NCBI RefSeq assembly: GCF_913060805.1
Contig: NZ_CAJXTC010000032.1
Span: 1-59,051 of the forward strand
Direction of reading: 5' to 3'
From: an uncultured Draconibacterium sp.
GTDB lineage: Bacteria > Bacteroidota > Bacteroidia > Bacteroidales > Prolixibacteraceae
Length of the DNA stretch: 59,051 bases
The notes beneath the pieces were generated by a model, which saw only the letters and a list, made by a program, of their open reading frames with translations, was not told the DNA's origin and did no database searches. Below are positions 2,590-57,495 of this stretch, in pieces. The first letter of the stretch is position 1, and the number at the start of each line of letters is the position of its first letter. The translations under genes were made by a program, and so were the position numbers.

Positions 2590-3561
2590 TTATTCTGCTG
2601 TTCCTTCTATCGTAATAATTTTTCCTTCGGCATCATATTCCAGTTCCACAACTTTCATGCTGCGCAGCCAGGTTTTGCCATTTGAAGGTACACAATCGTG
2701 ATGAAACAGGTACCATTTTCCTTTGAATTCAACAATTGAGTGATGCGTTGTCCAGCCCACAACCGGCGTTAAAATTACGCCCTGGTAAGTAAACGGACCA
2801 TAAGGATTGTCGCCAATAGCGTAGCACAATTTGTGCGTGTTTCCGGTTGAATACGAGAAGTAATATTTACCGTTGTATTTGTGCATCCACGAAGCTTCGA
2901 AAAAACGTCGGTCGTGGTCGCCGGCTTTTATCGGCTTGCCGTTTTCATCCAGAATAACCAGCGCCTTTGGTTCTTCGCCAAATTCCAGCATATCGTCGCT
3001 GAGTTTGGCAATTCGTGCCGGCAATGCCTGCTCATCATCGCCCGGTTCCTGACCACATTCAATGGCTTTGTTGTTGCGGTAACGCTGCAACTGGCCACCC
3101 CACAAACCGCCAAAATACATGTAATGGCTGCCATCCTCATCCTCAAAAACACACGGATCGATGGAGTAACTTCCTTTCATCGGCGCTTCCTGCGGAACGA
3201 ACGGCCCCTCAGGTTTATCGCTGATGGCCACACCAATCCTGAAAATATCGGTCTGGTCTTTCAGCGGAAAATAGAGGTAGTACTTTCCGTTTTTATAAGC
3301 ACAGTCGCTGTCCCACAGCTGGCGGCCCGACCACGGAATGTCTTTCACATCGAGCGCTACGCCATGATCGGTAACTTCTCCGTCAATTTCATCCATCGAA
3401 AAAACATGATAATCGCGCATATCGAAATGGTCGCCCAAATCGTTTTCGGGAATACCCGACTCAACATCGTGCGACGGGTAAATGTAGATTTTTCCGTTAA
3501 AAACATGTGCTGCCGGATCGGCAGTATAAAGGTCATCTACAAGGTATCGTGCTTTCTTCAT
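2590..3561 (-). CDS. Cytoplasmic GH43 glycosidase (beta-xylosidase/arabinofuranosidase type)
   Basis: A 323-residue single-domain GH43 five-bladed propeller without a signal peptide, so it acts on imported oligosaccharides. The three catalytic carboxylates are visible: the base Asp15 in TADPAAHV, the pKa-modulating Asp135 in SIDPCVFED and the acid Glu222 in FFEASWMHKY. In this operon it should hydrolyse xylo-oligosaccharides, or remove arabinose from them, after uptake by the GPH symporter. The exact specificity cannot be read from sequence. It starts 18 bases upstream of the SDR gene and is separated from the upstream GH10 gene by an intercistronic hairpin. Confidence 0.88.
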   Translation of the reverse strand: MKKARYLVDDLYTADPAAHVFNGKIYIYPSHDVESGIPENDLGDHFDMRDYHVFSMDEIDGEVTDHGVALDVKDIPWSGRQLWDSDCAYKNGKYYLYFPLKDQTDIFRIGVAISDKPEGPFVPQEAPMKGSYSIDPCVFEDEDGSHYMYFGGLWGGQLQRYRNNKAIECGQEPGDDEQALPARIAKLSDDMLEFGEEPKALVILDENGKPIKAGDHDRRFFEASWMHKYNGKYYFSYSTGNTHKLCYAIGDNPYGPFTYQGVILTPVVGWTTHHSIVEFKGKWYLFHHDCVPSNGKTWLRSMKVVELEYDAEGKIITIEGTAE

Positions 3562-39896: not shown

Positions 39897-40736
39897 ATGA
39901 AAAGAACACTTTTCCTTAAGGTAATCATTGCACTGATTGTGGTTACCGGTACAGTACTGAAAACCGAGGCGGCCAAAGTTCAACACTTATCAACCCACAG
40001 CCAATCGATGAATAAAGATATAGAAGCAGTGGTAATAACTCCGGAAGGTTATTCTGAAGACAATTCGTATCCGGTTCTATACCTGCTCCACGGTTATAGT
40101 GGCAATCAAAACGATTGGATAAACAACGTGCCAGAAATTAAAGATTATGCCGATCTGTATCAGTTTATCATCGTTTGTCCCGACGGCGCCTTTTCGAGCT
40201 GGTATTTCGATAGCCCGATCGACGAAAGCATAAAATACGAAACCTACGTAGCACATGAATTGGTTGACTGGGTTGACGACTCTTTTAGCACAATTGCATC
40301 GCGCGAAGGACGTGCCATTACAGGATTAAGTATGGGCGGACACGGTGCGTTGTATCTTGCTTTCAGAAACCAGGATGTTTATGGTGCCGCAGGAAGTTTG
40401 AGCGGAGGAGTTGATATTCGTCCCTTCCCAAACAACTGGGATATTTCGAAAAGATTGGGCACTTATGCCGAAAACAAAGACAATTGGGAAGAGAACTCGG
40501 TAATAAATCTTGTTTATAAGCTAACACCCGGATCACTTCAAATTGCGATTGATTGTGGTGTGAGCGATTTCTTTTACGGCGTTAATTGCGACTTACACGA
40601 GAAACTCCAAGAGCGAAACATTCCACACGATTTTACCACACGACCCGGAGGACATACCTGGGAATACTGGCAAAACGCAATTGCTTTTCAAAGTGTATTC
40701 TTTCACCACTTTTTTGAAAAAGGGAAGGAAGAATAA
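39897..40736 (+). CDS. Secreted esterase of the esterase D / CE1-like alpha/beta-hydrolase family
   Basis: A 279-residue alpha/beta hydrolase with a signal peptide (to about residue 25, KTEAA). The catalytic triad is readable: Ser145 in GLSMGGHG, Asp224 in DCGVSDFF and His253 in RPGGHTWEYW; the oxyanion-region LLHGYSGN is present. Proteins of this type cut acetyl, feruloyl or formyl-thiol esters. Secretion argues against S-formylglutathione hydrolase and favours a carbohydrate esterase. It stands alone between two terminators, outside both sugar operons, although a role in removing acyl groups from xylan would fit the neighbourhood. Confidence 0.85.
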   Translation: MKRTLFLKVIIALIVVTGTVLKTEAAKVQHLSTHSQSMNKDIEAVVITPEGYSEDNSYPVLYLLHGYSGNQNDWINNVPEIKDYADLYQFIIVCPDGAFSSWYFDSPIDESIKYETYVAHELVDWVDDSFSTIASREGRAITGLSMGGHGALYLAFRNQDVYGAAGSLSGGVDIRPFPNNWDISKRLGTYAENKDNWEENSVINLVYKLTPGSLQIAIDCGVSDFFYGVNCDLHEKLQERNIPHDFTTRPGGHTWEYWQNAIAFQSVFFHHFFEKGKEE

Positions 40737-40755
40737 AATGGATAAAAAACAGTAT

Positions 40756-40790
40756 AAAAGCCTGATAATCTTTGCGAATATCAGGCTTTT
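40756..40790 (+). terminator. Terminator of the esterase gene
   Basis: AAAAGCCTGATA (40756-40767) pairs perfectly with TATCAGGCTTTT (40779-40790), followed by GTTTT. A nearly identical hairpin ends the next gene. Confidence 0.8.
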
Positions 40791-40874
40791 GTTTTACTGT
40801 CAATTATTCTTTTTTCCAACTCAAATTGCAATGTTGTAAGAAATATTCATTTTTGTATTCCTAAAGTCCGGAAA

Positions 40875-41069
40875 ATGATGGAACACAATCCGAAATACGA
40901 ACCGCATGCCTGCGCAAAATGTGGCAACTTGCATACCTGCACCGGCAACTATCACTGCTGGTGTGCACAAGTAGATATGCCCGAAAAAGTGCGCGATTAC
41001 ATCATGGCTTGTTTCGATGGCTGCCTATGCCCCGACTGCATTGAGAAATTAAAAAGAACTATTATTTAG
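40875..41069 (+). CDS. Small cysteine-rich CWC-type protein
   Basis: A 64-residue protein with eight cysteines in the order CAKCG, HTCTGNYHCWC, CFDGCLCPDC, matching the cysteine-rich CWC family (named for its conserved Cys-Trp-Cys). A metal-binding fold is likely; the biological role of the family is unknown. Either ATG of the MM pair could start it. It forms its own transcript, with a terminator at 41092-41126, and sits between the esterase and the WYL region. It is soluble, with no signal peptide. Confidence 0.78.
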   Translation: MMEHNPKYEPHACAKCGNLHTCTGNYHCWCAQVDMPEKVRDYIMACFDGCLCPDCIEKLKRTII

Positions 41070-41242: not shown

Positions 41243-41572
41243 CTACTTATTCAGCGTTCTATTTGCAAGCCATAGCAAATACAAACCAACAAAGAAGACG
41301 ATTGGTAGAAATATGCTGGAGTTTATTTGGATGGTTTTCTTCCAACCAAACAGACGTGTTTCTTCTTTAATGATTGCATAAGTTGCTTTTATATAATGGA
41401 AGGTACTGTCCATTTCCTGTTTTATAGTATCAATATCAGCACTTACTTTTTCAATATTCAAAGGTTCGAAATCTTGTGTGCTATTTTGTGAAAGTGCTAT
41501 TATTGAAAGCAGAAACAGTAATAACAATATTGCTGATTTTTTCTTATATACTTTAATGCTTACTGTGCTCAT
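41243..41572 (-). CDS. Small two-span membrane protein divergent from the WYL regulator
   Basis: A 109-residue protein with a hydrophobic N-terminal segment (about 13-29, possibly a cleaved signal ending near ALSQ), a charged helical middle (ADIDTIKQEMDSTFHYIKAT) and a C-terminal membrane span (about 86-104, FLPIVFFVGLYLLWLA). I do not recognise the family. It faces away from the WYL regulator and its promoter carries the AGACA-N5-TGTCT operator, so it is probably co-regulated with the LRR genes. A small membrane protein beside defence-like soluble proteins might be an effector, but that is speculation. Confidence 0.6.
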   Translation of the reverse strand: MSTVSIKVYKKKSAILLLLFLLSIIALSQNSTQDFEPLNIEKVSADIDTIKQEMDSTFHYIKATYAIIKEETRLFGWKKTIQINSSIFLPIVFFVGLYLLWLANRTLNK

Positions 41573-41588
41573 TTGTTTTCCTTTCCGG

Positions 41589-41624
41589 CAAAACTATTGT
41601 AACAGAAAGACACACGCTGTCTTT
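41589..41624 (-). promoter_or_regulatory. Promoter and palindromic operator of the membrane-protein gene / WYL divergent region
   Basis: A 7-bp perfect inverted repeat AAAGACA-N5-TGTCTTT spans 41606-41624. On the minus strand a consensus -7 box TAGTTTTG (41596 to 41589) follows exactly 11 nt after the AGACA-N5-TGTCT core. The site also lies about 60 bases upstream of the WYL gene, so it could give autoregulation. A weaker TTGTG/CACAA inverted repeat is at 41645-41664. Confidence 0.65.
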
Positions 41625-41685
41625 AATGATGGTTTTATTTGAATTTGTGTAAATAGATTCACAATTTTGTTTTAAAGAATACGAT

Positions 41686-42600
41686 ATGTTTGATGAGATA
41701 AAAATCCAGCGACTAGAAACGTTTAAAACAGTTTTAAAAGGCGCAAAAGATGGTGTATTGAAATCAACACTTGCTGAAAAGTTGGGTTCTAATACAAAAA
41801 CCATTGAACGTTATGTAAACGATTTACGAAGCTTTGGTATAGCCATTCAGTCGCTTGGCCGACCTGTATACTATAGCATTGATTACGATAACAGCGAAAG
41901 CCTGGAACTTTTCGAGTACATTCTAAACAACCAATTTTTATCGACACATCTTTTAAGCATTATAAACGAAAAAGACCAAAACAAACGGTTCTTACTCGAC
42001 TATGTAGATTTTGAGCATCACCACGAATTCAGAGGAATCGACTATTTCGATAAATTGTTTAGTGCCATTACCAGTAGTAATTGCATAAGGTTTAGTTATA
42101 AAAGCTACTATTACAACAAAGAATTAAACGTTATTCTTAAACCCTTTTTAATTAAAGAATACAATTACCGCTGGTATGTTACCGGATTTAAAGATAACGG
42201 CGAAATTAGGATTTACGGCTTGGACAGGATAACATCGGAAATTAAATTTACCGGAGAACACTTTAAACTACCAGACGATTTTAACCGAAAAGAAATTTAC
42301 GAAAACACAATTGGTGTAACTATTTCGAAAGAGCACGAAACCATCGAACCTGTTGAAATCGTTTTTGAAATCGACAGTACCATCGCCAACCATGCCGAAA
42401 GTTTAAAAATGCATCCTTCGCAAAAAATACTCGAAAGTGGCAACCCGGATACTATCCGGTTTTCAATTTATGCCCGTCCCAACTACGAACTTTGGCACAC
42501 CTTTTTACAATATATTCCACACATCAAGATACTATCTCCTGCGCCTGTAAAAAGTTATTTTATTACGCTTCTACAAAAAACCGTCGAAAAGAATCAGTAA
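41686..42600 (+). CDS. WYL-domain transcriptional regulator
   Basis: A 304-residue regulator: N-terminal winged helix-turn-helix (about 5-62, VLKSTLAEKLGSNTKTIERYVNDLRSFG) and a central WYL domain (about 125-200, RFSYKSYYYNKELNVILKPF and RWYVTGF) with a C-terminal WCX-like region. WYL proteins sense nucleic acid or nucleotide ligands and often control phage-defence genes as repressors or activators. Four AGACA-N5-TGTCT-type palindromes in surrounding promoters (41608, 42656, 44289, 48021) make it the likely regulator of the LRR, membrane-protein and DUF2779 genes. The direct link between protein and site is inferred. Confidence 0.88.
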   Translation: MFDEIKIQRLETFKTVLKGAKDGVLKSTLAEKLGSNTKTIERYVNDLRSFGIAIQSLGRPVYYSIDYDNSESLELFEYILNNQFLSTHLLSIINEKDQNKRFLLDYVDFEHHHEFRGIDYFDKLFSAITSSNCIRFSYKSYYYNKELNVILKPFLIKEYNYRWYVTGFKDNGEIRIYGLDRITSEIKFTGEHFKLPDDFNRKEIYENTIGVTISKEHETIEPVEIVFEIDSTIANHAESLKMHPSQKILESGNPDTIRFSIYARPNYELWHTFLQYIPHIKILSPAPVKSYFITLLQKTVEKNQ

Positions 42601-42655
42601 AACGATTGGGATAAAACTACACCTTTCAAAATAAAATTTACGCTTCCAAAAAGAG

Positions 42656-42689
42656 AGACAGTGTTTGTCTGCCTGTTCCTTTTCCTTTG
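42656..42689 (+). promoter_or_regulatory. Operator and -7 box of the first LRR gene
   Basis: AGACA-GTGTT-TGTCT occupies 42656-42670. Eleven nt later TTCCTTTG (42682-42689) resembles the -7 box TAnnTTTG. No -33 TTTG is at the usual distance, so the palindrome occupies the place of the -33 element. The LRR gene starts at 42714 after an AAAGGA ribosome-binding site. Confidence 0.62.
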
Positions 42690-42713
42690 CACAATAATAA
42701 TTTATAAAGGAAA

Positions 42714-44270
42714 ATGCCTATGAATAAAAACAGAATTTGGTGGAACAACCTGAATAATTCCTGGAAAAGAGAACTGATTGAAAATTTGCTGGAAAACCAA
42801 AAATATCAGCGTCAGAACATAAACAAAGACGATATTCTACATTTTGCCGAAGAATCGGATGCCATAATTGAGGACATTGAAAACTTAACCTGTGTGCATG
42901 TATCTGAAGAGGTTGTAGATAACCTGAAACCACTAAACTTCCTTAATAACATTAATGATTTTCGAATCAAACCACTCTTCTATAACGATGAGTTGCTTGA
43001 CTACGACATTAAACACTATCCTAAACACCTGCGTGAGAAAGTACTTTTTTTAGAAGTAAAAGACACATACCTGGGTGACGATTTAACCATTTTACATGAT
43101 TTCGTAAACCTTGAACATCTGGTATTTGTCAATTGCGAACTCCAATCTCTAGAAGGAATTCAGAAATTAACAAAACTCAAACGTGTTGACCTATCACAAA
43201 ACCCTTTTACTGATTTAACTCCTTTAAAAAGACTCCAAATTCAGAAATTAAATATTAGCAGAACAAACGTAAGAGATACCAGTCCGCTAATATGCCACCC
43301 ATCTATTGAATGGATTAATGTAGAAGGCCTCGACCTCGATATTCCCGATAACCGTAATTTTTTTAGTATCCCCAAACTAGAACTTATTGTATATACAGAG
43401 TACAATGAAGCACTATTCTTCGACGAAATTCTGATTAAAAACAACGCTCCTGATCCGAATCGGGAATGGTGGAAAGAACTATCGACAGAATGGAAAATTA
43501 GACTTATTTCAAATCTACTAGACACCGATGAGTACAAAGACTTTGGAATTGACATTGAGGGCTTATATCACTTAGTTGAAAATTCAAACAAATACTTGCC
43601 GTTTATTGCAAGCCTCGAAACAGTAAGAATCAATTCAGAATGGCTGAACGATTTAGCGCCATTAGACAACCTGAAAAAGCTTAAAAGAATTGAAATTGAT
43701 TTTGATGAAAAAAGTAAGCAAAACGCGCACAAAATGTTAGCAAAATGTCCCTGTCACCTTCGCCCGAAAGTGAAAGTTATAAACTTAAACAAAGTTCCTT
43801 TCTCTGCTAATTTTACGCTTTTATCAAAATTTGAGAATCTTGAAAAACTATACATCGGAAATTGTGGTTTTACTTCCTTAACCGGATTAGAGAAGTTGAA
43901 ACACCTGAAACATTTAGCTGCTTCCGGTAACTATTTTTCCGATTTACAACCTTTAGCATCTTTATCCTTAGAACTTTTAGATTTACAAGACACACCAGTA
44001 AAAGATTTAAGTGTCATCGAAAAAATGACAAGTCTCGAATTTCTGAATGTAAAATCGATAATCGGACTGATTAATTATTCAGCCATATTTTATTTGCCGT
44101 TTCTAAAGCTAGCCATTTCCTACGAAGTAATTAAAACAACGCGAACAAGTATCAAACGTCAACTACATCACGAAATATCAGAGAAATTGCAGAACAACAA
44201 TATTATCAACCTGAATCCTGATGTTGTGCCCCATAAGCTTATAAAAAATTCTTCTTTCAATAAAAACTGA
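42714..44270 (+). CDS. WW-headed leucine-rich-repeat protein, internally duplicated
   Basis: A 518-residue soluble protein made of two similar halves. Each opens with a WW-containing head (WWNNLNNSWKRELIENLL near residue 9; WWKELSTEWKIRLISNLL near 245), followed by a divergent helical part and then bacterial LRRs (LEHLVFVNCELQSLEGIQKL; LEKLYIGNCGFTSLTGLEKL) with a SPL/DLTPL-type capping. There is no signal peptide or membrane span, so it is cytoplasmic. LRRs suggest protein-protein recognition; no enzymatic domain is visible. The WYL-type operator upstream and the paralogue downstream suggest a regulated recognition module. Function unknown. Confidence 0.75.
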   Translation: MPMNKNRIWWNNLNNSWKRELIENLLENQKYQRQNINKDDILHFAEESDAIIEDIENLTCVHVSEEVVDNLKPLNFLNNINDFRIKPLFYNDELLDYDIKHYPKHLREKVLFLEVKDTYLGDDLTILHDFVNLEHLVFVNCELQSLEGIQKLTKLKRVDLSQNPFTDLTPLKRLQIQKLNISRTNVRDTSPLICHPSIEWINVEGLDLDIPDNRNFFSIPKLELIVYTEYNEALFFDEILIKNNAPDPNREWWKELSTEWKIRLISNLLDTDEYKDFGIDIEGLYHLVENSNKYLPFIASLETVRINSEWLNDLAPLDNLKKLKRIEIDFDEKSKQNAHKMLAKCPCHLRPKVKVINLNKVPFSANFTLLSKFENLEKLYIGNCGFTSLTGLEKLKHLKHLAASGNYFSDLQPLASLSLELLDLQDTPVKDLSVIEKMTSLEFLNVKSIIGLINYSAIFYLPFLKLAISYEVIKTTRTSIKRQLHHEISEKLQNNNIINLNPDVVPHKLIKNSSFNKN

Positions 44271-44288
44271 CACAGACTTCACTTAGAA

Positions 44289-44322
44289 AGACAGTTCGTG
44301 TCGTTCTTCTGAAGTTTCTTTG
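44289..44322 (+). promoter_or_regulatory. Operator and -7 box of the second LRR gene
   Basis: AGACA-GTTCG-TGTCG (44289-44303; one mismatch to the palindrome) is followed after exactly 11 nt by TTTCTTTG (44315-44322), a TTnnTTTG -7-like box. The geometry is identical to the promoter of the first LRR gene. Confidence 0.58.
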
Positions 44323-44352
44323 TACACAAGATAATATTAACATGTTTTGCCT

Positions 44353-45201
44353 ATGAACAGAAGTTGGTGGAAGAGTTTAAACGATGACTGGAAAAATGAG
44401 TTGATGAGTAACCTGTTGATTAACAATGACAATGGTTGCTTTTTTCCTGAGCTGATAACAATATTTCAAACAGATAAACTTTCGGACAGAAATATTGCTG
44501 CAATCCAGACTCTATCAGAAATCCATATTACAAGCCGGGTTTTATACGATTTATCGCCACTAAACAAATTAAGTAAGCTAAAACACCTTCATATTGAAGC
44601 TAAAGGAAACGATTATCCAGAAATAAAAGGCCTGTTAAAGATGATTCCTCATCATTTATCGGTCAAGGTAAATTCCGTGTTTTTCGAAGACATTACTATT
44701 GGCGAGGATTGTTCTGTTCTTTCCCGGTTTTATAATATTGAATCGCTGCATTTAAAAGCCTGCAACATAAAATCATTAAAAGGTATTCAGAATCTGAAGA
44801 AACTACAAACGCTGGCCATTCCTAATAACCAATTCCCTTTATATCTGCGTTACCTGGTTGGTTTGCCATTAAAAACGCTTATGCTGGAAAACACACCGAT
44901 TAACAACTTAAATCCTCTCCACTTTATACGAACTTTAAATTGTTTAATGATTAGCTCACTCACCGATATTGCAGATTATTGGACTTTGTCGGGCTTACGA
45001 AAAATTGAACTTATTATTAACGGCGAATATGTTGAACAAACACTCAGTAATTTAGAAACCATTTTGAAGAAAGAGACCAAAGGTAAAGTTACAAACAGTT
45101 ACAAACAGCAGTTGGCCGAAGTTGACATTGCCAATATTAATACCACATTGCTGCTTGATAACCTGCATACTTTTTTACCATTGCCAAACCGATACAATTA
45201 A
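44353..45201 (+). CDS. WW-headed leucine-rich-repeat protein, shorter paralogue
   Basis: A 282-residue cytoplasmic protein with a single WW head (SWWKSLNDDWKNELMSNLL) and LRRs (IESLHLKACNIKSLKGIQNL, LKTLMLENTPINNLNPL), related to each half of the preceding protein. I start it at ATG 44353. Two codons upstream a TTG gives TTG-CCT-ATG, the counterpart of ATG-CCT-ATG in the paralogue, so 44347 is an alternative start and the match supports a recent gene duplication. It has its own operator-type promoter and is probably co-transcribed with the next gene, 10 bases downstream. Function unknown. Confidence 0.72.
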   Translation: MNRSWWKSLNDDWKNELMSNLLINNDNGCFFPELITIFQTDKLSDRNIAAIQTLSEIHITSRVLYDLSPLNKLSKLKHLHIEAKGNDYPEIKGLLKMIPHHLSVKVNSVFFEDITIGEDCSVLSRFYNIESLHLKACNIKSLKGIQNLKKLQTLAIPNNQFPLYLRYLVGLPLKTLMLENTPINNLNPLHFIRTLNCLMISSLTDIADYWTLSGLRKIELIINGEYVEQTLSNLETILKKETKGKVTNSYKQQLAEVDIANINTTLLLDNLHTFLPLPNRYN

Positions 45202-45211
45202 ACACAGAAAT

Positions 45212-45670
45212 ATGATAGTAATTAACGTATGCATAAACCAAAGCAGTGGAATGAATATTGCCGAAACCGAGAAGTTTATTAAAAAGATAAAGACTATGGG
45301 AGTTGAAAAATACGAGGTTGTTTTCACCGTTCCTAAGTTTTTAGAAGCTCTGGAAAAACACAAAAACAAGAAGGTTTTACTTTTTAGCAACTTTTCGCCC
45401 GACTATTTTTATAGAAAAAACGGTATTGAAGTAAACCATTATAACGAAGAACCAATGCCAGGTTGGCCGATAAAAGAATATGCCTTTAGTGCAGCTCTTT
45501 ATTACCGCATTTGCCGCGAGTATTCATTTGTAGCCATTCATTTTATTACAGCAGCTTACACCAGCATGGTTCCCGATTCGCTTTTTTTTAGCATTACCGG
45601 AAATATACCAACTACTATAAAACGAAAACAGGATTGGACAAAACCGGGTATGAACTACGAGCTTTTTTGA
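45212..45670 (+). CDS. Unidentified 152-residue protein in the LRR operon
   Basis: An intact short protein beginning MIVINVCINQSSGMNIAETE; the ATG at 45212 is chosen because the longer open frame (from 45122) overlaps the upstream LRR gene. The first ~75 residues alternate strands and helices (VEKYEVVFTVPKFLEALEKH, KVLLFSNFSPDYF), compatible with a small Rossmann or TIR-like fold, but no diagnostic motif is visible. No signal peptide or membrane span. Its 10-base spacing from the second LRR gene points to co-translation and a shared job, perhaps as an effector or partner of the LRR protein. I do not recognise the family. Confidence 0.6.
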   Translation: MIVINVCINQSSGMNIAETEKFIKKIKTMGVEKYEVVFTVPKFLEALEKHKNKKVLLFSNFSPDYFYRKNGIEVNHYNEEPMPGWPIKEYAFSAALYYRICREYSFVAIHFITAAYTSMVPDSLFFSITGNIPTTIKRKQDWTKPGMNYELF

Positions 45671-45896
45671 GATTTTATTTAGAGGATAGAATAAAAGATT
45701 CTTTTAGTATGAAACGAACATGAATTTTCTTCATTCTAAATTCACAAAAAAGAATGATTAAAATTTATGTGAGTTCCTGAATGTCTTCAAATTTTTTGAA
45801 CATTCAGAAACAAAAAATTTTTAACAGATGAAACATTGATTCCAAAACAAGATGAAAAGGCTATATTTATGTCTACAATACTGAACAAATTAACTT

Positions 45897-46643
45897 ATGG
45901 AAATAAACTTTAGTTTTAATCGTAGCTTGGAAATAATAGATGAAGTCTCTACAACTTTTTCTGAATTTGAATCAAATTGCCCCACCATTGTTTTTTCAGA
46001 TGAAATACCACCACTATTAGCAGGGAAAAATAATGAAATTGAAAAATTTCCTGTATGTGGACTATTGGGAGAATATTGCCTTAGAACAAAGAAAATAATA
46101 ATTTATTTACAGGGAATAAACTTTGTTCACACCAAGTTAGGTTCTAATCCTCAAAGTTCGAAGCTTTATCAAAACTTATTAAAAATTGTTATTATCCACG
46201 AGTTAGGTCATTATTGGCATTACACATGCATGAATAAAAGCAATTATGAAGGTTCTATATGTGATGAAGAGTTTAGTGAATGGATTGCTCAAATGTTCAC
46301 TATGTTTTGTTTGTCCAAATATAAAACGGCTACTGAAATTTTATTTAATCTTTCCAAGAATCAACCTGATATTTACAAATCATTTGTTGATTTTAAAATA
46401 ATGTTTAAAGAACATTTCTATGAAATAGTTAGAGAACTTTGGTCTTCTTATCCATCGGAGATAACATTTTACTCCCCAGGGAATGAAACAATAAAATTTT
46501 TATTTTCACTTTATACCTTAAAGGAAGAAAATCAAAATAACATGATTGAGATACTTTCCAGCTTGGGTGATATATCATACAATTCAATTAAAGATAACAA
46601 GGATATAGAAATAATAAAAGACCGAGATTCATATAACATCTAA
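45897..46643 (+). CDS. Zinc-metallopeptidase-like protein (HELGH), unknown family
   Basis: A 248-residue soluble protein with an HEXXH zinc-protease motif (IIHELGHYWHY, His101-Glu102-His105) and acidic residues about 20 further on (CDEEFSEWIAQMF, Glu124/125/128) that could give the third ligand, as in gluzincins or ImmA-like proteins. The rest is unfamiliar. Its DNA is visibly more AT-rich than the sugar loci, and it lacks the WYL operator upstream, so it may be a later insertion into the island. Cleavage of a regulator or toxin is a possible but unsupported role. The next gene follows by 37 bases. Confidence 0.6.
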   Translation: MEINFSFNRSLEIIDEVSTTFSEFESNCPTIVFSDEIPPLLAGKNNEIEKFPVCGLLGEYCLRTKKIIIYLQGINFVHTKLGSNPQSSKLYQNLLKIVIIHELGHYWHYTCMNKSNYEGSICDEEFSEWIAQMFTMFCLSKYKTATEILFNLSKNQPDIYKSFVDFKIMFKEHFYEIVRELWSSYPSEITFYSPGNETIKFLFSLYTLKEENQNNMIEILSSLGDISYNSIKDNKDIEIIKDRDSYNI

Positions 46644-46680
46644 TAAGGTATTCATTAACATTATTATAAAACAAATTAAA

Positions 46681-47523
46681 ATGAAGGGATATTTTAAAAA
46701 AATTGACCGCTCAATAATGGAGTGGGGTTTTGTTATTCCAAAGGAATTTGTGAATGATTTTTTGAATGGTCAAATTTTAGCCGTTGGAGATAGCCGCGAT
46801 ATCGAATTGTTATGGAATAGAAAAAAATATTCAGCTAAAATTCGTCATAAAAAAGGAAAAAATCCACAATACCTCGTTCAATGGAGTTCAAACAATGAGC
46901 TTCTTAGCAAACTTAGAACAACTTTCGTTCAAAGCTATATTGTATTAAAATCTCAAAAAGAATTATTTGATAAAAATTCATCTAAAGAGGGGAAGCATTT
47001 TCGAACAAAATTAGCAGGTGGTCAGCAAGAAGTTATTGTTTTTACGCCAATAGGTGTCAACATAGTTAAAGTGGACGAGTTTATTGTAATTGAAAACGAA
47101 TGGAATGAGTTGTTTAAACGACTCATTACCGAAAATGTATTTGGTTGGATATTTGAAAAAAATGACAAAGAGTATCTAATTCAGAGGAGTACAGATTGGA
47201 TGGATGTTAGACACTTTCCAAGTCATCAAAATGCAGTAAATGTTATATATTATTTGGCTAATACAGAAAAGAAGTTATTGTATATAGGTAAAGCTAAAAA
47301 CTTAGGTACGAGAGTGAAACCTGGCAGAAAACATCAAAATATGCCGGGAGATTGGGACCTATTTAAATATGATATTATTCGAATAGAATTTGCAAATATT
47401 CTGGAACGAATAGAAGACCATACTATAAGAACCGTTGCTTCAATCCTTAATAATCAAAAAGGATATTCAAGTTTAAACCTCAGCGAATATACATTGGTTA
47501 ATGACAAATGGAAGAAATTATAG
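46681..47523 (+). CDS. GIY-YIG nuclease-domain protein
   Basis: A 280-residue protein. The N-terminal ~95 residues look like a compact DNA-binding or recognition fold (WGFVIPKEFVNDFLNG, LLWNRKKYSAKIRHK) that I cannot name. The C-terminal part (about 186-265) is a GIY-YIG nuclease: VIYYLANTEKKLLYIGKAKN gives the two strand motifs (IYY 189-191, YIG 201-203), Arg211 is the catalytic arginine position and the IEDHTIR helix supplies Glu. It could be a restriction-like endonuclease. AT-rich like its upstream neighbour, with which it probably forms an operon; it ends by overlapping the convergent gene by 6 bases. Confidence 0.68.
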   Translation: MKGYFKKIDRSIMEWGFVIPKEFVNDFLNGQILAVGDSRDIELLWNRKKYSAKIRHKKGKNPQYLVQWSSNNELLSKLRTTFVQSYIVLKSQKELFDKNSSKEGKHFRTKLAGGQQEVIVFTPIGVNIVKVDEFIVIENEWNELFKRLITENVFGWIFEKNDKEYLIQRSTDWMDVRHFPSHQNAVNVIYYLANTEKKLLYIGKAKNLGTRVKPGRKHQNMPGDWDLFKYDIIRIEFANILERIEDHTIRTVASILNNQKGYSSLNLSEYTLVNDKWKKL

Positions 47524-47976
47524 AGACAAATTTGTTCCCCTAAAATTAACCGGTTGATTCAAATCCATCTCAGCCTTAAACAATATCCCCTTTTCAGTCA
47601 ACCCAACAACTTTAGGCTCTTTATCGCCTGTGTAGGTTTTGGTATAAATCAGTTCTTCTTCCAATAATTCGTCAATTATCTGGTCGAAATACAAGCGGTG
47701 TGCCGGTGCAAGCATGGAATGTAATAACGATTTATACGAAGGAACGGTGGTGTAATTGTTCCAGCCTTCGCTTATTTCGCAATTGGTGCTGTTATAAAGT
47801 TGCGATACAATTAATTCCTTGGCTTGCTGGATTATCGCATCTTTTAGCATTTTCTGTGGGGTTATAAGGTATTTTTCCTGGAGGTAAATTTTCAGTTCGC
47901 TTTCAACTTGTTCTGTCGTAATTTCGCGTTCTTTTACAACCTCCTGAATAATTTCATTTAATTCTTTTTCTTTCAT
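47518..47976 (-). CDS. Winged-helix-like protein of unknown function
   Basis: A 152-residue cytoplasmic protein from the ATG at 47976 (MKEKELNEIIQEVVKERE); the open frame extends 21 codons further but would run into the operator. Helical throughout, with a C-terminal segment (FDQIIDELLEEELIYTKTYTGDKEPKVVGLTEKG) that resembles a winged helix with its wing and terminal GLTEKG. It is divergent from the DUF2779 nuclease gene, with a WYL-type palindrome between them, suggesting a regulatory or accessory role for that nuclease. Family not recognised. Confidence 0.6.
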   Translation of the reverse strand: MKEKELNEIIQEVVKEREITTEQVESELKIYLQEKYLITPQKMLKDAIIQQAKELIVSQLYNSTNCEISEGWNNYTTVPSYKSLLHSMLAPAHRLYFDQIIDELLEEELIYTKTYTGDKEPKVVGLTEKGILFKAEMDLNQPVNFRGTNLSL

Positions 47977-48020
47977 AATCTTTAAAATTGCTTTTGTTGT
48001 GTAAAAATGAGGCTTTAGTA

Positions 48021-48035
48021 CGACACGGAGTGTCT
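48021..48035. promoter_or_regulatory. Fourth WYL-type palindrome, between the winged-helix and DUF2779 genes
   Basis: CGACA-CGGAG-TGTCT (one mismatch to AGACA-N5-TGTCT). On the minus strand it lies 45 bases from the 47976 start, and a weak CATTTTTA occurs 11 nt downstream of it. On the plus strand the nuclease promoter is more likely TTG (48074) with AGTATTTG (48095), so the site would sit further upstream. The spacing rule seen at the other three sites is therefore only weakly kept. Confidence 0.45.
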
Positions 48036-48136
48036 CCAATATGCTGCGTTCCGTATTTTGCTGAAATAATTGGTTGCATTCTCAATCAAAGTAAAGTATT
48101 TGCTACATTTAAAACTTTAAAAACCGTTTACACATC

Positions 48137-50116
48137 ATGCGCTACCTTACCAAATCGAGATTTAAGTTGGCTGAAGAGTGCCCCACCAAACTTTACTATA
48201 CACGCAAAAAGGAATATCCCGATAAAAGTGTCGAAGACCCCTTTTTAGCAGCTCTTGCAGAAGGAGGTTTCCAGGTAGGAGAACTGGCCAAATGTTATTT
48301 TCCCGGAGGAATCGATATAAAATCATTGGATTACAACGAAGTTTTGGAACAAACAAATGCCTTGTTAACCAACGAAAACGCTATTATTTACGAGGCAGCA
48401 ATTCGATACAAAAACCTGTTTATCCGGGCCGATGTTTTAGTGAAACAGGGGAACAAATTTTACCTGCACGAAGTAAAAGCCAAATCGTGCGACTTTGATG
48501 ATGAAACCGGTTTTTTAAGTACAAAAGGATTTCTGGCACCGGCGTGGAAACCTTATGTACACGATGTAGCTTTTCAGAAATACGTTTTAACACGGGCATT
48601 TCCGCAAATGCAGGTTTTTTCTTACCTCATGTTGGTCGATAAAACCAAAACGGCAACTGCTAACGGTTTAAATCAGAAATTTCAGCTAACTAAAAACGAC
48701 ACAGGCAGAACCGAGATAAACGTAACAGGAGATACGAGTTTACAGGCACTTGGCGAAAAATTACTGATTTCGATTAACGTCGATAATTTGGTTTCGAAAA
48801 TATGGAGCGGAAGCGCTTCTAAAACTCCACCGGCAATTTCTTTCGAAAAATCAATTCTTCATTTTGCCACCAACTACGAAACTGATACTAAAATTGATTC
48901 ACCCATAACACCAGATTGCTGGAAATGCCAGTTTACTTGTACACCGGAAGAAGAGGCCAGCGGTTTAAAATCGGGTTTTAAAGAGTGTTTGCAAAATAGA
49001 TTGGGGTGGAACGATGCACAATTTATGCTTCCTACAGTAATTGAAGTTTGGGATAATCGCAGTAAAAAGAAGCTTTTCGAGAATGGCAAAATTTTTATGC
49101 ACCAGCTCAGCGAAAACGACCTAAAAGATAGTGCGGGTGGTACAACTCTTTCACGCACCGAACGGCAGTGGTTACAGGTGAATAGAACAGTGAATAAAGA
49201 CAATACTGCCTACCTGGATAAAGTTGGTTTAAAAGACTTAATGGACTCGTTTGCTTATCCGTTGCATTTTATCGATTTTGAAACCTCGATGGTGGCCATT
49301 CCTTTTAATGCAGGCAGAAAACCTTATGAACAAACCGCGTTTCAGTTTTCACATCATACAATGGATGCAGATGGAAATGTAAAACATGCCGGACAGTTTC
49401 TTTTTACCGAAAAGGGCAAATTTCCCAACTACGATTTTTTAAGGTCATTAAAAAAAGAACTGGAACAGGATGAAGGCACTATTTTTCGCTATGCTGCTCA
49501 TGAAAACACCGTGCTTAACCAGATTTATATCCAGCTCATAAACGATGATTCTATATCTGCGACTGAGAAGGAAGAACTTAAATCTTTTATTCGGGAAATT
49601 ACCACTTCTTCAAATCAACTGGCAGAACAATGGGAGGGTCCCCGAAAAATGGTGGATATGCTTCAATTGGTTAAAGAATATTACTACGACCCATTAATGA
49701 AAGGGTCAAATTCCATAAAGGTTGTCCTGCCTACCATTTTGCAAACTTCAGACTACATTCACGACAAATACAGCCAGGCGATTTATGGTAAAAATTCAGC
49801 AATAAAAAGTCTAAATTTTGAAGACGATTGGATTTGGATTCAAAAAGATGCTAATGGAAAAACAATAAATCCATACAAGCTGCTACCCGCACTTTTCGAA
49901 GGTGTTGAGCGTACCGAGGACTTTTTAACTGATAGTGCCTATTTAGCCGATGGCGGTGCTGCAATGACTGCCTATATGAAAATGCAGTTCTCGAATATGA
50001 CAAAGGAAGAACGCGAAGCATTAATACACGGATTACTTCGCTACTGTGAACTGGACACTCTTGCAATGGTGATGATTTTTGAAGCCTGGAGGGAGTGGAT
50101 AAAAGAAAGTGATTAA
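48137..50116 (+). CDS. DUF2779 protein: Cas4-like Fe-S nuclease fused to a DEDD exonuclease-like domain
   Basis: A 659-residue protein. The N-terminal PD-(D/E)XK nuclease core has Asp99 (FIRADVLVK) and Glu112-x-Lys114 (HEVKAKSC). Cys15 with Cys261, Cys264 and Cys268 or Cys284 gives the split cysteine set that holds a 4Fe-4S cluster in Cas4/AddB-type nucleases. The C-terminal half opens with FIDFET (Asp380, Glu382; DEDD motif I) and has RYCELDT near residue 645 (motif III), like RNase H-fold exonucleases. DNA end processing or degradation is the likely activity. Context (WYL palindrome, LRR genes, adjacent tRNA fragment) suggests a defence or mobile-element role, which is inference. Confidence 0.82.
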   Translation: MRYLTKSRFKLAEECPTKLYYTRKKEYPDKSVEDPFLAALAEGGFQVGELAKCYFPGGIDIKSLDYNEVLEQTNALLTNENAIIYEAAIRYKNLFIRADVLVKQGNKFYLHEVKAKSCDFDDETGFLSTKGFLAPAWKPYVHDVAFQKYVLTRAFPQMQVFSYLMLVDKTKTATANGLNQKFQLTKNDTGRTEINVTGDTSLQALGEKLLISINVDNLVSKIWSGSASKTPPAISFEKSILHFATNYETDTKIDSPITPDCWKCQFTCTPEEEASGLKSGFKECLQNRLGWNDAQFMLPTVIEVWDNRSKKKLFENGKIFMHQLSENDLKDSAGGTTLSRTERQWLQVNRTVNKDNTAYLDKVGLKDLMDSFAYPLHFIDFETSMVAIPFNAGRKPYEQTAFQFSHHTMDADGNVKHAGQFLFTEKGKFPNYDFLRSLKKELEQDEGTIFRYAAHENTVLNQIYIQLINDDSISATEKEELKSFIREITTSSNQLAEQWEGPRKMVDMLQLVKEYYYDPLMKGSNSIKVVLPTILQTSDYIHDKYSQAIYGKNSAIKSLNFEDDWIWIQKDANGKTINPYKLLPALFEGVERTEDFLTDSAYLADGGAAMTAYMKMQFSNMTKEEREALIHGLLRYCELDTLAMVMIFEAWREWIKESD

Positions 50117-50213
50117 AAACATCGAACCACTTCTTCAAAAATCATACAGGCTGTATTCTAATAAGTTATGGAAAATAAAAAAGGAGAAAACAGATAAAAA
50201 TTCTGATTTCTCC

Positions 50214-50262
50214 TCGTTAGTACCCGGGGCGGGAATCGAACCCGCCTATCTGATATTCAAAG
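50214..50262 (-). other. 3' tRNA fragment, probable attachment-site remnant
   Basis: On the minus strand the sequence gives a complete T arm (GCGGG-TTCGATT-CCCGC) and an acceptor 3' strand (CCCGGGT, discriminator A), preceded by the 3' side of an anticodon stem, but no D arm, anticodon loop or 5' acceptor strand precede it. Integrases of islands recombine at such 3' tRNA segments, leaving a partial copy at one end. I infer an island boundary. The tRNA identity cannot be read. Confidence 0.65.
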
Positions 50263-50425
50263 CTTGTTATACGCTGTTTTTCAGGACAAATATATAAAAT
50301 ATTTCAATCTTTTTGGTGGGACTTTTGGTGGGAGTTTTAATTGTCCGTTAGAGATAATATATTTCTCGAACATCGTCTTTCTCCGTTGTTAATAATTTTG
50401 GATAATCAATACTTTGCATACATTT
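50263..50425. other. Non-coding stretch with a 12-bp tandem repeat next to the tRNA fragment
   Basis: No gene is visible. CTTTTTGGTGGGA and CTTTTGGTGGGA repeat in tandem at about 50309-50333. On the minus strand this encodes TPTKSPTKK followed by ~15 codons and a stop inside the region, possibly the relic end of an integrase gene; the evidence for that is weak. Confidence 0.35.
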
Positions 50426-50576
50426 AACTGCACTTTAATCCATCATTAGTTATAACATTTAAGTCTTTGTAAATTAATGCATAATTTTCAGGGCGAACAT
50501 TGTATTCTTTTTGGGGTTTTAATGCAAAAACATTTAGTGATAGAATTACCAATAATATGGATAAAGTTTGTTTCAT
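50424..50576 (-). pseudogene. Truncated N-terminus of a secreted protein, alpha/beta-hydrolase-like
   Basis: A 50-codon frame with a clean signal peptide (MKQTLSILLVILSLNVFA) followed by PENYALIYKDLNVITNDGLK, which resembles the start of secreted alpha/beta hydrolases (YGLxYEEVxFxTxDGLKL). It stops after two further codons, far short of a hydrolase domain, and no continuation is found in other frames. It therefore looks like a gene truncated by a rearrangement at the island or attC-like boundary. It starts 47 bases from the attC-like site at 50621. Confidence 0.45.
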
Positions 50577-50620
50577 AATTCTTTATTTATTCTACAGTAT
50601 TTGAGTCAGTTTATTTTTGT

Positions 50621-50753
50621 GCATAACGGTCACTTGTATGTTTATACTGTGGAGGACGGGCTATTATCTTGTCAAGTTAAGCATAACGTTGATGCGAGCC
50701 GAGACTTTGAGAATTTACACGAAAACCACAGTTAAATATACAAATTGTTAGCG
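50621..50753. repeat. attC-like imperfect inverted repeat A
   Basis: Starts GCATAAC and ends GTTAGCG. The arms, about 30 bp each, are complementary with interruptions (TTGTATGTTTA...TGTGG against CCACAGTTAAATATACAA), with a GCAT/ATGC hairpin between them. It lacks an open frame. The terminal AAC/GTT pairs and folded arms resemble integron attC sites and the related elements at 55427, 58212 and 58838; the terminal motifs deviate by one and two bases from the attC consensus. Confidence 0.5.
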
Positions 50754-50952
50754 TTTCGTTGTTTATTTTCAGTCAACTTGCTTTGAAATTAAATCTTTAA
50801 CTATCATCTCCTGGTGGGAGGGGTGGAAAGGCTCTTTGGTAAAATTAGGATGCAGAGTTGGCTTTTGTGAGTTTTACCAATGTGCCTTTTAGCGGGGGTA
50901 TGAGACGCTTTTAATAAATCTTTTCTTCTTATTTTTTAATAAATCATTTTAC
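50754..50952. other. Intergenic stretch before the Fur-family gene
   Basis: No gene is visible. It contains a purine-rich CTCCTGGTGGGAGGGG segment (50808-50823) with a short CTCC/GGAG palindrome and a GTTTTACCA/TGGTAAAA inverted repeat spanning about 50838-50880. I cannot assign a function to either. Confidence 0.35.
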
Positions 50953-50953
50953 A

Positions 50954-50985
50954 TTTGCAACATTGTTGCATTTGAAATATATTTG
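50954..50985 (+). promoter_or_regulatory. Promoter with Zur/Fur-type palindrome, leaderless transcript
   Basis: A -33 TTTG (50954-50957) and -7 TATATTTG (50978-50985) are 20 bp apart, the optimal Bacteroidota spacing. The perfect palindrome TGCAACA-T-TGTTGCA (50956-50970) overlaps the -33 element and spacer. The ATG at 50991 is only 6 nt beyond the -7 box, so the mRNA should be leaderless. It is a likely autoregulatory operator of the Fur-family protein. Confidence 0.72.
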
Positions 50986-50990
50986 CACCG

Positions 50991-51398
50991 ATGAAAGCAA
51001 TTGATATATTAACTACAAATAAATTAAAAAGAACCAGTTGTCGCGAGGGAATTATTGAAATTGTCATGAATGCCGGGCAAGCTCTCTCGGAAAACGAAAT
51101 AAGGGAAAGGTTAGCTGGCAACTATGACAGAACAACTTTCTACCGGTCGTTTAAAACACTTGAAGAGCACCACATTATTCACAAAATTGTAGTGGACAAC
51201 CAATTGGTAAAATATGCACTTGATAATTCGGTTACCAACAAATACGAGCATGCACATTTTTATTGTGGGAAATGCAATACAGTTAGGTGCTTGGATGATG
51301 TTCCTGTACAAAATTATCAGCTACCGAAAGGCTATTCGAACAAAGAAACTGAAGTAATAATAAAAGGAACGTGCCCAAGCTGTGAAAATCAGGAATGA
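50991..51398 (+). CDS. Fur-family metal-responsive regulator, probably Zur
   Basis: A 135-residue Fur-family repressor. The N-terminal winged helix covers about 10-75 (SENEIRERLAGNYDRTTFYRSFKTLEEHHIIHKI), and the metal-binding dimerisation domain includes EHAHFYCGKCNTVRC and the structural-zinc pair CPSCENQE. Shared operon membership with a ZnuD-like TonB receptor and His-rich lipoproteins suggests zinc as co-repressor; iron or another metal is not excluded. It heads the operon under a promoter with a perfect palindrome. The next gene starts 3 bases after its stop. Confidence 0.85.
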   Translation: MKAIDILTTNKLKRTSCREGIIEIVMNAGQALSENEIRERLAGNYDRTTFYRSFKTLEEHHIIHKIVVDNQLVKYALDNSVTNKYEHAHFYCGKCNTVRCLDDVPVQNYQLPKGYSNKETEVIIKGTCPSCENQE

Positions 51399-55550: not shown

Positions 55551-57495
55551 GTGTGCCCAGCATGAGCATGTGCACACTTTACTGTAAGCTCTGAAAAAAT
55601 GTTTAAAATACAAATTTTTATTGTTAAACGTTAAAGTGTGCATGAGATTATTCCAGAGGGTGTAAGTCCCTTATGCGCCATCCGCCAGCTGGCGGCCGGA
55701 AGCATTAGCAAGTGGCAAGTTGGTTGCGGGTAACTGCAGCAGTGAAGGAAGCCAACCGGCAAACTCCGGTACTGACGAACAGGAACGGCATACGAGGCTA
55801 CTGAAACATGGACAAGCAAGCACATCATTGTAACGTCCTATAAACTTCGGTTATGTTCGGTAGTAGATGTCGCAGGAATTGGAGGAAGGAAGATGCTCTT
55901 ACCTGGGGAGATCCTGATGTCCGCCAGCTGGCTGGCCGTCAGGAAGTCAGCAGAAGCCATAGTAGGGTCAGGAAACGAGCCGTCAGAAAACGGCGGAGGT
56001 CTCACCGATGAACTGAAGGGCTGAACGCATGAGTTGGCCCAAATGCTGTAAGGAAGCTTTTCGAAAGATTCTAGCCTTACAATAAGCGGGACAGGGAAAC
56101 AAATGAGAATTAAAATGATTGAACAAATTCTATCGCGGAAAAACCTGTTACAGGCTATGTACAAAGTCCAGCAGAACCACGGTTCGGCAGGAGTTGACCA
56201 CATGCCGGTAACTCGGCTATCAGAGCTACTTGCCATCGACAAGGAAGAACTGACAGCCAGGGTTCGAAGCGGGAAGTATTTGCCACAAGCCATTTTAGGA
56301 GTAGAGATTCCGAAAGGAAAAGGGAAAACCCGCTTACTGGGGATTCCCACTGTTACCGATCGCCTGTTACAACAGGCAGTCTTACAAGTGATCACAGCAC
56401 GATTCGAGTATGAGTTTTCTGATTCCAGCTTTGGATTTCGTCCCAACCGGAGCGTGCAACAGGCAGTGCAAAAAGCACAGGGATACATCAACGAAGGGTT
56501 TCAGCATATCGTGGATATCGATCTGAAAACTTTCTTCGACGAAGTAAACCACTGCTACCTTCTGCAACTGCTTTACCGCAAAATCAAGTGCCGCGAAACG
56601 ATGCTCCTGATCCGCAAATGGCTGCGTTCCCCGATACAAATTAAAGGGAAACTGGTCAAACGCAGAAAAGGAGTGCCACAGGGAAGCCCAATAAGTCCGC
56701 TACTGTCAAACATCATGCTACATGAACTCGACCGGGAACTGGAACGGCAAGGCTTTCGATTTGTTCGTTATGCTGATGACTTTAGTATTTACCTAAAAAC
56801 TAAAACATCTGCACGAAAAGTAGGCAACAATATCTATCGTTTTCTGAAACGAAAACTGAAGTTGCCCATCAACCGGGAGAAAAGCGGCATCCGTCGCCCT
56901 GTACATTTTACCATTCTCGGTTTTGGCTTTGTGCCAACCTACCGGAAAGGTGAACGCGGAAAGTATCAACTGGTAGTATCAGAAAAGAGCTGGAGCAGTT
57001 TAAAGTACAAACTTAAATCCATCACCCGCAAAACCACCCCGATGAGTTTCGACGAGCGTATCGAAAAACTGGTCGAGGTTCAGCGCGGCTGGATCAATGC
57101 TTTCCGTATGGCAAGCATACAGATCAAACTCGCTGCCCTTGACGGGTGGCTTCGCAACCGTCTCCGTTACTGTATTTGGCATCACTGGAAGAAGCCAGAA
57201 CGGAAAAGGAAAAACCTGATTCGTTTAGGCGTTGATCCGGAAAAAGCCTATCAATGGAGCCGATCGCGAATGGGTGGCTGGGCTATTGCCCAAAGCCCAA
57301 TTCTTGGTACTACAATTACTGTTGATCGGTTGAAAATGCGGGGTTACGTTCCTTTGCTGGATCTTTACAACGAGGTGAAACCAAAATCACTGTTGTTTCC
57401 TATGACTTAGCGAACCGCCATATACGAGACCCGTACGTACGGTGGTGTGAGAGGTTCTCCGGTAGGCTTTACAGCCTATCGGCTACCTACTCGAT
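55551..57495 (+). mobile_element. Group II intron (IIC-attC-like) with maturase
   Basis: The 1945-base intron starts GTGTGCCCAGCATGAGCATG and ends CTACTCGAT. Domain I motifs (GAGGGTGTAAGTCCC near 55657) precede the maturase gene. Domain V is seen at about 57413-57450 (CCGCC...GTACGTACGGTGGT) and a domain VI hairpin at about 57462-57487 (GGTAGGC...GGCTACC). Both boundaries are supported because excision restores an attC-like end. The intron lies in opposite orientation to the adjacent cassette gene, as described for IIC-attC introns. Confidence 0.78.
56103..57410 (+). CDS. ltrA: Group II intron reverse transcriptase/maturase
   Basis: A 435-residue intron-encoded protein: reverse-transcriptase blocks (GSAGVDHMPV; LLGIPTVTDRLLQQAV; SFGFRPNRSVQQA; KGVPQGSPISPLLSN), the catalytic FVRYADDF, and the maturase domain (HFTILGFGFVPTY; GWINAFRMASIQ; LRYCIWHHWKKP). 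No HNH endonuclease domain follows, so mobility would depend on target folding or replication forks, which agrees with insertion in a hairpin-forming attC-like site. It appears intact. It promotes splicing of its host intron and retrohoming. Class IIC is suggested by protein type and target and not proven. Confidence 0.93.
   Translation: MRIKMIEQILSRKNLLQAMYKVQQNHGSAGVDHMPVTRLSELLAIDKEELTARVRSGKYLPQAILGVEIPKGKGKTRLLGIPTVTDRLLQQAVLQVITARFEYEFSDSSFGFRPNRSVQQAVQKAQGYINEGFQHIVDIDLKTFFDEVNHCYLLQLLYRKIKCRETMLLIRKWLRSPIQIKGKLVKRRKGVPQGSPISPLLSNIMLHELDRELERQGFRFVRYADDFSIYLKTKTSARKVGNNIYRFLKRKLKLPINREKSGIRRPVHFTILGFGFVPTYRKGERGKYQLVVSEKSWSSLKYKLKSITRKTTPMSFDERIEKLVEVQRGWINAFRMASIQIKLAALDGWLRNRLRYCIWHHWKKPERKRKNLIRLGVDPEKAYQWSRSRMGGWAIAQSPILGTTITVDRLKMRGYVPLLDLYNEVKPKSLLFPMT

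Follow-up and report, generated by a model that had tools for sequence, protein, structure and literature searches.

A palindromic element at a fixed promoter distance marks a candidate WYL regulon in a Draconibacterium accessory region

Which regulator, if any, connects a set of dissimilar genes that share a palindrome in their promoter regions? A 59,051-nucleotide (nt) stretch of contig NZ_CAJXTC010000032.1 from an uncultured Draconibacterium sp., the whole of which we call the window, carries AGACA-N5-TGTCT or a close variant of it at four places, beside genes for a WYL regulator, two leucine-rich repeat (LRR) proteins, a small membrane protein and a putative winged-helix protein. A first-pass annotation of this DNA had proposed that a shared operator joins these genes into a single regulated unit. 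We give a probability of about 0.65 to the reading in which the WYL regulator encoded at 41686–42600 uses the four palindromes as its operators and acts as an activator at the −33 place of the promoters of its own locus. Of the earlier proposal, the confinement of the sites, their fixed spacing and the WYL protein as likely owner hold up; the inclusion of a gene for a DUF2779 protein does not.

The four palindromes lie where they had been annotated. A palindrome search returned operator 1 (AGACACACGCTGTCT, 41608–41622), whose flanking boxes point in both directions, operator 2 (AGACAGTGTTTGTCT, 42656–42670, plus strand), operator 3 (AGACAGTTCGTGTCG, 44289–44303, plus strand) and operator 4 (CGACACGGAGTGTCT, 48021–48035), which was assigned to the minus strand by scoring of its flanks and reads AGACACTCCGTGTCG towards the winged-helix gene. 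Read towards the gene, every site has the form AGACA-N5-TGTC(T/G), for site 4 on the minus strand only. The spacer bases differ among the four operators, and flanks have not been copied along with them.

Bacteroidota promoters consist of a −7 element, TAnnTTTG, and a −33 element, TTTG (PMC7366714). We scored −7-like boxes by the number of fixed letters of TAnnTTTG matched, out of six, and measured spacing from the outer operator base, such that 11 nt corresponds to 12 nt counted from GTC. Operator 1 is flanked at 11 nt by two boxes: one of 6/6 on the minus strand (TAGTTTTG, 41589–41596), from which another 16 nt lead to the ATG of the small membrane protein gene, and one of 5/6 on the plus strand (TTTATTTG, 41634–41641), 44 nt before the ATG of the WYL gene. 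Boxes of 5/6 follow operator 2 (TTCCTTTG, 42682–42689, plus strand), 24 nt before LRR gene 1, and operator 3 at 11 nt (TTTCTTTG, 44315–44322, plus strand). The 11-nt spacing that had been annotated is exact for site 1 on the minus strand and for sites 2 and 3 on the plus strand; the plus-strand box at site 1 had been missed. The proposed pairing of operators with the small membrane protein gene, both LRR genes and the 152-amino acid (aa) protein gene likewise stands, with the addition that one of the two boxes at site 1 points to the WYL gene.

Site 4 had been placed before a winged-helix/DUF2779 gene pair, and this placement fails in part. On the minus strand, a weak 4/6 box (CATTTTTA, 48002–48009) lies 11 nt from operator 4 and 25 nt before the winged-helix ATG at 47976, whereas in the direction of the DUF2779 gene the 11-nt position scores 0/6. 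Because the minus-strand box and ATG fit and the DUF2779 side does not, site 4 belongs to the winged-helix gene, and the promoter evidence gives no support to membership of the DUF2779 gene in the regulon.

Among the eight oriented site flanks, four have a box of at least 5/6 at 11 nt, and any other spacing from 4 to 25 nt has at most one (P ~1.8e-6; 3.9e-5 after correction for 22 spacings). The operator covers the position at which the −33 TTTG would lie, as had been noted earlier, and since the palindrome occupies that place, the window promoters have no TTTG −33 element. The fixed phase between operator and box favors a contact with the polymerase over simple blocking.

The number of palindromes is less unusual than their placement. 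Even with one mismatch allowed, the window has no match beyond the four operators (chance mean 1.24, standard deviation 1.09), which are also its only occurrences of GACA-N5-TGTC, but this number is only modestly unusual, as 3 of 100 window shuffles have at least four one-mismatch palindromes. Similarly, the pattern MGACA-N5-TGTCK occurs at seven places in the 5.48-Mb genome and its reversed control at nine, so the genome-wide count is not raised, and the unusual part is clustering and placement. Four of the seven places are the window operators, which fall inside 6.45 kb (chance ~2e-7, computed after the fact). The three places away from the cluster include two within open reading frames (ORFs) and one lacking an ORF of at least 70 aa, with a box of 4/6. 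The operator followed after 11 nt by TNNNTTTG is found without mismatches, genome-wide, only at site 1 (both strands) and site 2; with one mismatch, site 3 is added along with a single place on contig C4, where we saw no adjoining ORF of at least 70 aa in the sense direction, and allowing TGTCK in the operator brings site 3 among the exact matches. By these genome counts and composite searches, the promoter-linked motif is not equally common away from the cluster.

The element recurs in other members of the bacterial family, of which we searched 140 genomes. The strict form AGACA-N5-TGTCK-N11-TNNNTTTG is present in four genomes, with four places in the Draconibacterium genome itself and four in three others; its reversed control occurs in two genomes, at one place each. 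Genome G088 has two genuine promoter-like sites, and the matches on contigs G525:C356 and G094:C54 lie within ORFs and were set aside as chance. In G526, which has a distant WYL homologue, there are two sites, each 12 nt (counted from GTC) from a perfect TAnnTTTG, with a DUF2779 relative (31% identity) alongside. The shorter form GACA-N5-TGTC-N12-TANNTTTG occurs at 26 places in 17 genomes, compared with five for its reversed control. In the stretches fetched around all 25 places outside the Draconibacterium genome, a WYL gene of the kinds searched for is present at 10 (11 of 26 with that genome included). In three loci (L153, L157, and L162), a WYL gene is the next gene, 20, 22, and 25 nt after the box, respectively.

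A search of the 140 genomes at E≤1e-50 with one WYL protein from the operator loci defined a second WYL subfamily of 28 genes in 27 genomes, none of them in the Draconibacterium genome. The 28 loci (103.7 kb) contain 11 GACA-N5-TGTC sites in 10 loci. A box of at least 5/6 lies 12 nt from 10 of these 11 sites (perfect in six), and other spacings from 4 to 30 nt occur at most twice. The count includes the query locus L163; excluding it leaves 10 sites in 9 of 27 loci, nine with the box. Six exact composites in these loci are also counted among the 26 family places, the genomes being the same, and four of the five sites outside the 26 have a 5/6 box at this spacing. Palindromes with a spacer of 3, 4, 6 or 7 instead of 5 are absent from the 28 loci, and other palindromes of like make-up occur twice each. 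If one operator mismatch is allowed, the 12-nt spacing scores 27 and every other spacing (4–24) at most 3, and the element is then present in 18 of the 28 loci. The spacing that had been annotated in the window is in this respect conserved, beside a related WYL subfamily. Subfamily WYL genes are found in 11 of 16 operator-bearing genomes (the Draconibacterium genome excluded) as compared with 16 of 123 others (Fisher p 4.9e-6). We take the regulon to be local and real, with an operator-promoter element common to at least two WYL subfamilies in this family.

The WYL protein of the window (304 aa, plus strand) has an N-terminal winged helix-turn-helix, for which the match to HTH_11 (E 5e-5, 23.5 bits) is just under the Pfam cut-off of 25, a WYL domain (PF13280, 38.3 bits; cut-off 21.8) and a weak WCX match at its C-terminus (E 0.0016, 19.2 bits; cut-off 23.9). 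The predicted structure is poor overall, with a predicted local distance difference test (pLDDT) score of 57, but its winged helix-turn-helix part has a mean of ~79–92, and the linker to the WYL domain, where activators of the DriD type have a three-helix bundle, is below 50. Arg42 of the recognition helix is present in 25 of 25 aligned sequences, which comprised 5 of 7 orthologues and 20 of the 28 second-subfamily genes. In a weak, non-significant alignment, Arg42 falls on an arginine of the WYL entry 9pfq, which we take to be DriD. The best sequence match among entries of the PDB is PafBC (E 2.4e-8). The protein is rare: a search of 5.8 billion proteins returned six relatives besides itself, orthologues were found neither in a contig scan of 84,980 species nor in viral contigs, none at E≤1e-50 was found in 393 genomes of the order besides its own, and matches in plasmid and phage records are distant only (<60% identity). 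Its gene is the likely owner of the four sites.

In the mechanism we propose, the WYL regulator, probably as a homodimer, would bind AGACA-N5-TGTCT through the core GAC-N7-GTC, with its center over the missing −33 element, ~19 nt ahead of the TAnnTTTG-type −7 box as counted to the first T. Once bound, it would hold RNA polymerase on otherwise weak promoters, in an activation resembling that by DriD. Operator 1 would serve the WYL gene itself and the divergent small membrane protein gene, operator 2 LRR gene 1, operator 3 LRR gene 2 with the 152-aa protein gene, and operator 4 the winged-helix gene. The entire cluster would have been acquired horizontally as a unit, with DNA damage or infection as its most likely trigger. 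We infer binding of the WYL protein to the sites, activation, a nucleic-acid inducer (single-stranded DNA or other) and a defensive output.

The closest published parallel is DriD of Caulobacter crescentus, a homodimeric WYL activator with the consensus ATACGAC(X)7GTCGTAT, which sits over the −35 element at one distance from −10 on all its promoters, aids the polymerase on poor promoters, and has a bidirectional promoter at its own gene (PMC12340889, a preprint). All four window sites share its GAC-N7-GTC core. As in DriD, a WYL protein is associated with an operator over the −35/−33 place at one fixed distance from −10/−7 (weakly so for site 4), with weak promoter elements and with a bidirectional promoter at the regulator gene. 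For both PafBC (PMC11804915) and DriD (PMC12340889), the ligand that has been published is single-stranded DNA. However, the window belongs to another phylum with a different promoter language (TAnnTTTG), its outer bases are AGACA rather than TACGAC, and its targets are at its own locus, whereas those described for DriD are scattered repair genes. In addition, DriD is described as not activating its own gene, while a box in the window also faces the WYL gene. The mycobacterial SiwR (PMC10693628) and PafBC (PMC11804915) are also WYL activators, working between −35 and −10, and SiwR resembles the proposed regulator in that it binds, as a homodimer, to a palindrome next to its own gene. Unlike the window operators, these proteins act near −26 and on a different motif, and PafBC is a heterodimer described as not binding its promoter alone.

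The WYL protein might instead own the sites as a repressor, blocking the polymerase from the −33 place until a ligand made during infection releases it. BrxR (PMC9122601) and CapW (PMC9122588) provide the precedent, being palindrome-binding WYL repressors linked to defense islands; BrxR has several sites in one island, where it recognizes 11-bp repeats with a 5-bp spacer at two boxes. Autorepression would fit operator 1 at the WYL gene's own promoter, and production of the LRR proteins and the small membrane protein may carry a cost. However, the operators of BrxR and CapW overlap or lie below −10, whereas the window operator always ends upstream of the −7 box, by 11 nt, at a spacing of an exactness that blocking does not need; the window promoters also lack a TTTG where the −33 element usually lies. 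Because a blocking repressor needs no exact phase and BrxR and CapW bind at or below −10, we prefer activation and regard repression as unlikely. We read the cluster as a locally confined WYL regulon for which activation is more likely than repression.

Several observations weigh against this activator reading. The sequence relation of the WYL protein to DriD is weak (E 0.02), and the element-bearing WYL proteins of the second subfamily are only ~25–28% identical to that of the window. Ten of the 28 subfamily loci are without the element, and loci of WYL relatives with 28–33% identity (13 family loci besides the window's own, 220.8 kb) contain two GACA-N5-TGTC sites and no box. The window boxes themselves are mostly imperfect (one 6/6, three 5/6 and, at site 4, 4/6), and the missing −33 TTTG may say less than it seems to, since this element is reported as poorly conserved in parts of the phylum and the motif as not found in another member (PMC7366714). 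With three mismatches allowed, the composite occurs 82/83 times in the Draconibacterium genome and its control 119/117 times; there being no excess, no wider degenerate regulon is visible in this genome. Among the 26 family sites, four are within ORFs, ~5 are expected by chance, and 14 have no recognized WYL gene in the stretch fetched.

The last of these figures would also fit a real operator bound by another regulator, either the winged-helix protein, encoded at site 4, or a second WYL protein of this genome, which has other weak WYL candidates (seven candidates with the second-subfamily protein as query, none at E≤1e-50). Against this, the sites statistically track WYL genes across genomes and stand directly before WYL genes in three loci, and the winged-helix protein has no relative at E≤1e-4 in 21 operator loci, which makes another owner quite improbable. 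Coincidence or repeat remnants of no regulatory meaning, for which the shuffles and the reversed genome control might be cited, can hardly account for four of seven genomic sites being clustered, for the fixed spacing, for the differing spacer bases, and for recurrence in other genomes.

Beyond the window, the family-wide sites may belong to a Bacteroidota promoter class, a "WYL box" of GACA-N5-TGTC, 12 nt and TAnnTTTG, in which a dimeric WYL activator replaces the −33 element. Several subfamilies would use a single operator language, its core kept as far as DriD, and turn on CRISPR-Cas, nucleases, AAA proteins and, in the window, a previously undescribed module of LRR, receiver-like and small membrane proteins upon DNA damage or phage attack. 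This generalization is tentative, and we hold it to be somewhat more doubtful than not. The first genes behind the element illustrate the range of putative targets. A 376-aa AAA protein is the first gene within 38 nt in L114, L117, L154, and L157 (Pfam AAA for the L154 copy), and an RNA ligase (L150) and an HD protein (L158) are further first genes within this distance. Operator-led operons in L149 and L151 consist of HIRAN and Cas6 genes followed by Cas7 and/or Cas3. By Pfam, L149 has a WYL/WCX gene (WYL 21.5 bits, cut-off 21.8; WCX 28.4 bits, cut-off 23.9), and L151 has a shortened HTH_11 relative without a WYL match.

We found no description of such an operator-promoter element in the open-access literature searched. 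The element gives WYL regulation a concrete, readable mark at the promoter in a phylum with non-textbook promoters, and makes it possible to predict WYL targets by sequence, among them CRISPR-Cas operons and uncharacterized accessory genes. The claim that homodimeric WYL activators use one mechanism across phyla becomes testable, and the rare combination of WYL, LRR, 152-aa and small membrane protein genes is delimited as a module that can be studied for a common function.

Some features of these family loci may be noted in their own right. The small HIRAN gene comes first in the CRISPR-Cas operons of L149 and L151 that carry GACA-N5-TGTC-N12-TAnnTTTG, and these operons adjoin the WYL/WCX gene or its shortened relative. 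The ~376-aa proteins, which have a C-terminal AAA domain (L114, L117, L154, L157, L182, and L183), recur beside the WYL subfamily and immediately behind the operator. Nine neighbors of subfamily WYL genes were compared with Pfam: two matched UVR above the cut-off and one below it, one each an RNase_T-type exonuclease, PD-(D/E)XK and AAA, and three had no match. Small proteins with UVR-like motifs are often beside this subfamily in L163–L190. The neighbors would appear to have a DNA-processing flavor, which is suggestive rather than proof.

The window cluster occupies an accessory region of ~41.1–50.9 kb, as judged from comparison with congeners. On its left flank (39897–41069), an esterase gene is kept in six of six congener loci fetched and CWC in two of six, and the FUR/TonB genes of the right flank have other positions in the congeners examined. 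At >35% identity, the six congener loci (117 kb), which contain one palindrome and no box, have none of the nine cluster genes between 41243 and 50116. The WYL gene (E≤1e-20) and the DUF2779 gene (E≤1e-30) are each absent from 13 of 13 congeners. To the right of the accessory region, positions 56103–57410 encode a group II intron reverse transcriptase/maturase.

The unit had been said to match no known defense system, and a PADLOC scan of 10 proteins (41243–51398) agrees, with no complete system matched. Strong matches were confined to the WYL protein and CRISPR-associated WYL models (E 8e-22). The same protein matched CARF, Csa3 and Cas3c models more weakly, the 152-aa protein gave two weak PDC matches, and the remainder gave none. 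The WYL protein resembles CRISPR-associated WYL regulators in these model matches and in the element it shares with the two CRISPR-Cas operons of the family, but unlike theirs, its cluster is without a cas gene. A defense role for the cluster is plausible by neighborhood and by analogy.

The small membrane protein (109 aa, 41243–41572, minus strand), identified as an ORF with hydrophobic stretches at both termini, has a homologue in genome G519. LRR protein 1 (518 aa, 42714–44270, plus strand) consists of two tandem units, each ~30% identical to LRR protein 2, which is encoded at 44347–45201 on the plus strand (284 aa from a TTG; an ATG is at 44353) and has a close homologue, P0017. The 152-aa protein (45212–45670, plus strand) is in the same operon as LRR 2 and has a predicted receiver/flavodoxin-like fold. 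Its frame (45212–45676) stops ~20 residues before those of its relatives and similarity runs past the stop, with one TGA inside; a frameshift in this copy or a fault of the assembly may be the cause. Among the 5.8 billion proteins, the 152-aa protein has seven relatives besides itself and LRR 2 has two. The longest contigs carrying P0003 (WYL), P0017 (LRR), and P0012 (152-aa) each measure 6352 bp, and because of this equal length the three are probably on one contig.

The odd genes of the cluster belong together at least in part, because two of their pairings recur elsewhere. In L071, a Bacteroidia metagenome-assembled genome, an LRR gene lies 21 bp ahead of a 152-aa gene, in the same order as in the window. 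In G519, a genome from the same genus, the homologue of the 152-aa protein (43% identity) is convergent to a small membrane protein homologue (53% overall, 61% over 74 aa), and neighboring genes match the PADLOC models TmtA (E 4e-50) and DrmD (E 4e-63). G519 serves as a negative control, having no window-type WYL gene at E≤1e-5 and no operator near these two homologues. The region in question (L107, G519:C1, 9470–19928) holds, besides the homologues, a TmtA-like protein, a resolvase and two helicases, one of them DrmD-like, and is likely a defense or mobile island.

Between operators 3 and 4, and without operators of their own, lie genes for a protein with a HELGH zinc-peptidase-like motif (45897–46643) and for a GIY-YIG protein below the Pfam cut-off (46681–47523). 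The gene labeled winged-helix by the first-pass annotation (47518–47976, minus strand; 152 aa from the ATG) matched no family in a domain search, and the ORF as listed extends to a TTG at 48039, inside operator 4. Adjacent to operator 4 on its other side is the DUF2779 gene (48137–50116, plus strand), which encodes a predicted exonuclease of 659 aa. Relatives of it were found in 3 of 100 genomes besides its own, and the short loci fetched around them contain no operator. In L071, positions 2658–3536, which follow the LRR and 152-aa genes downstream, encode a protein with a sulfatase-modifying-factor (FGE) domain, the C-terminus of which presumably resembles the variable region of a diversity-generating retroelement target.

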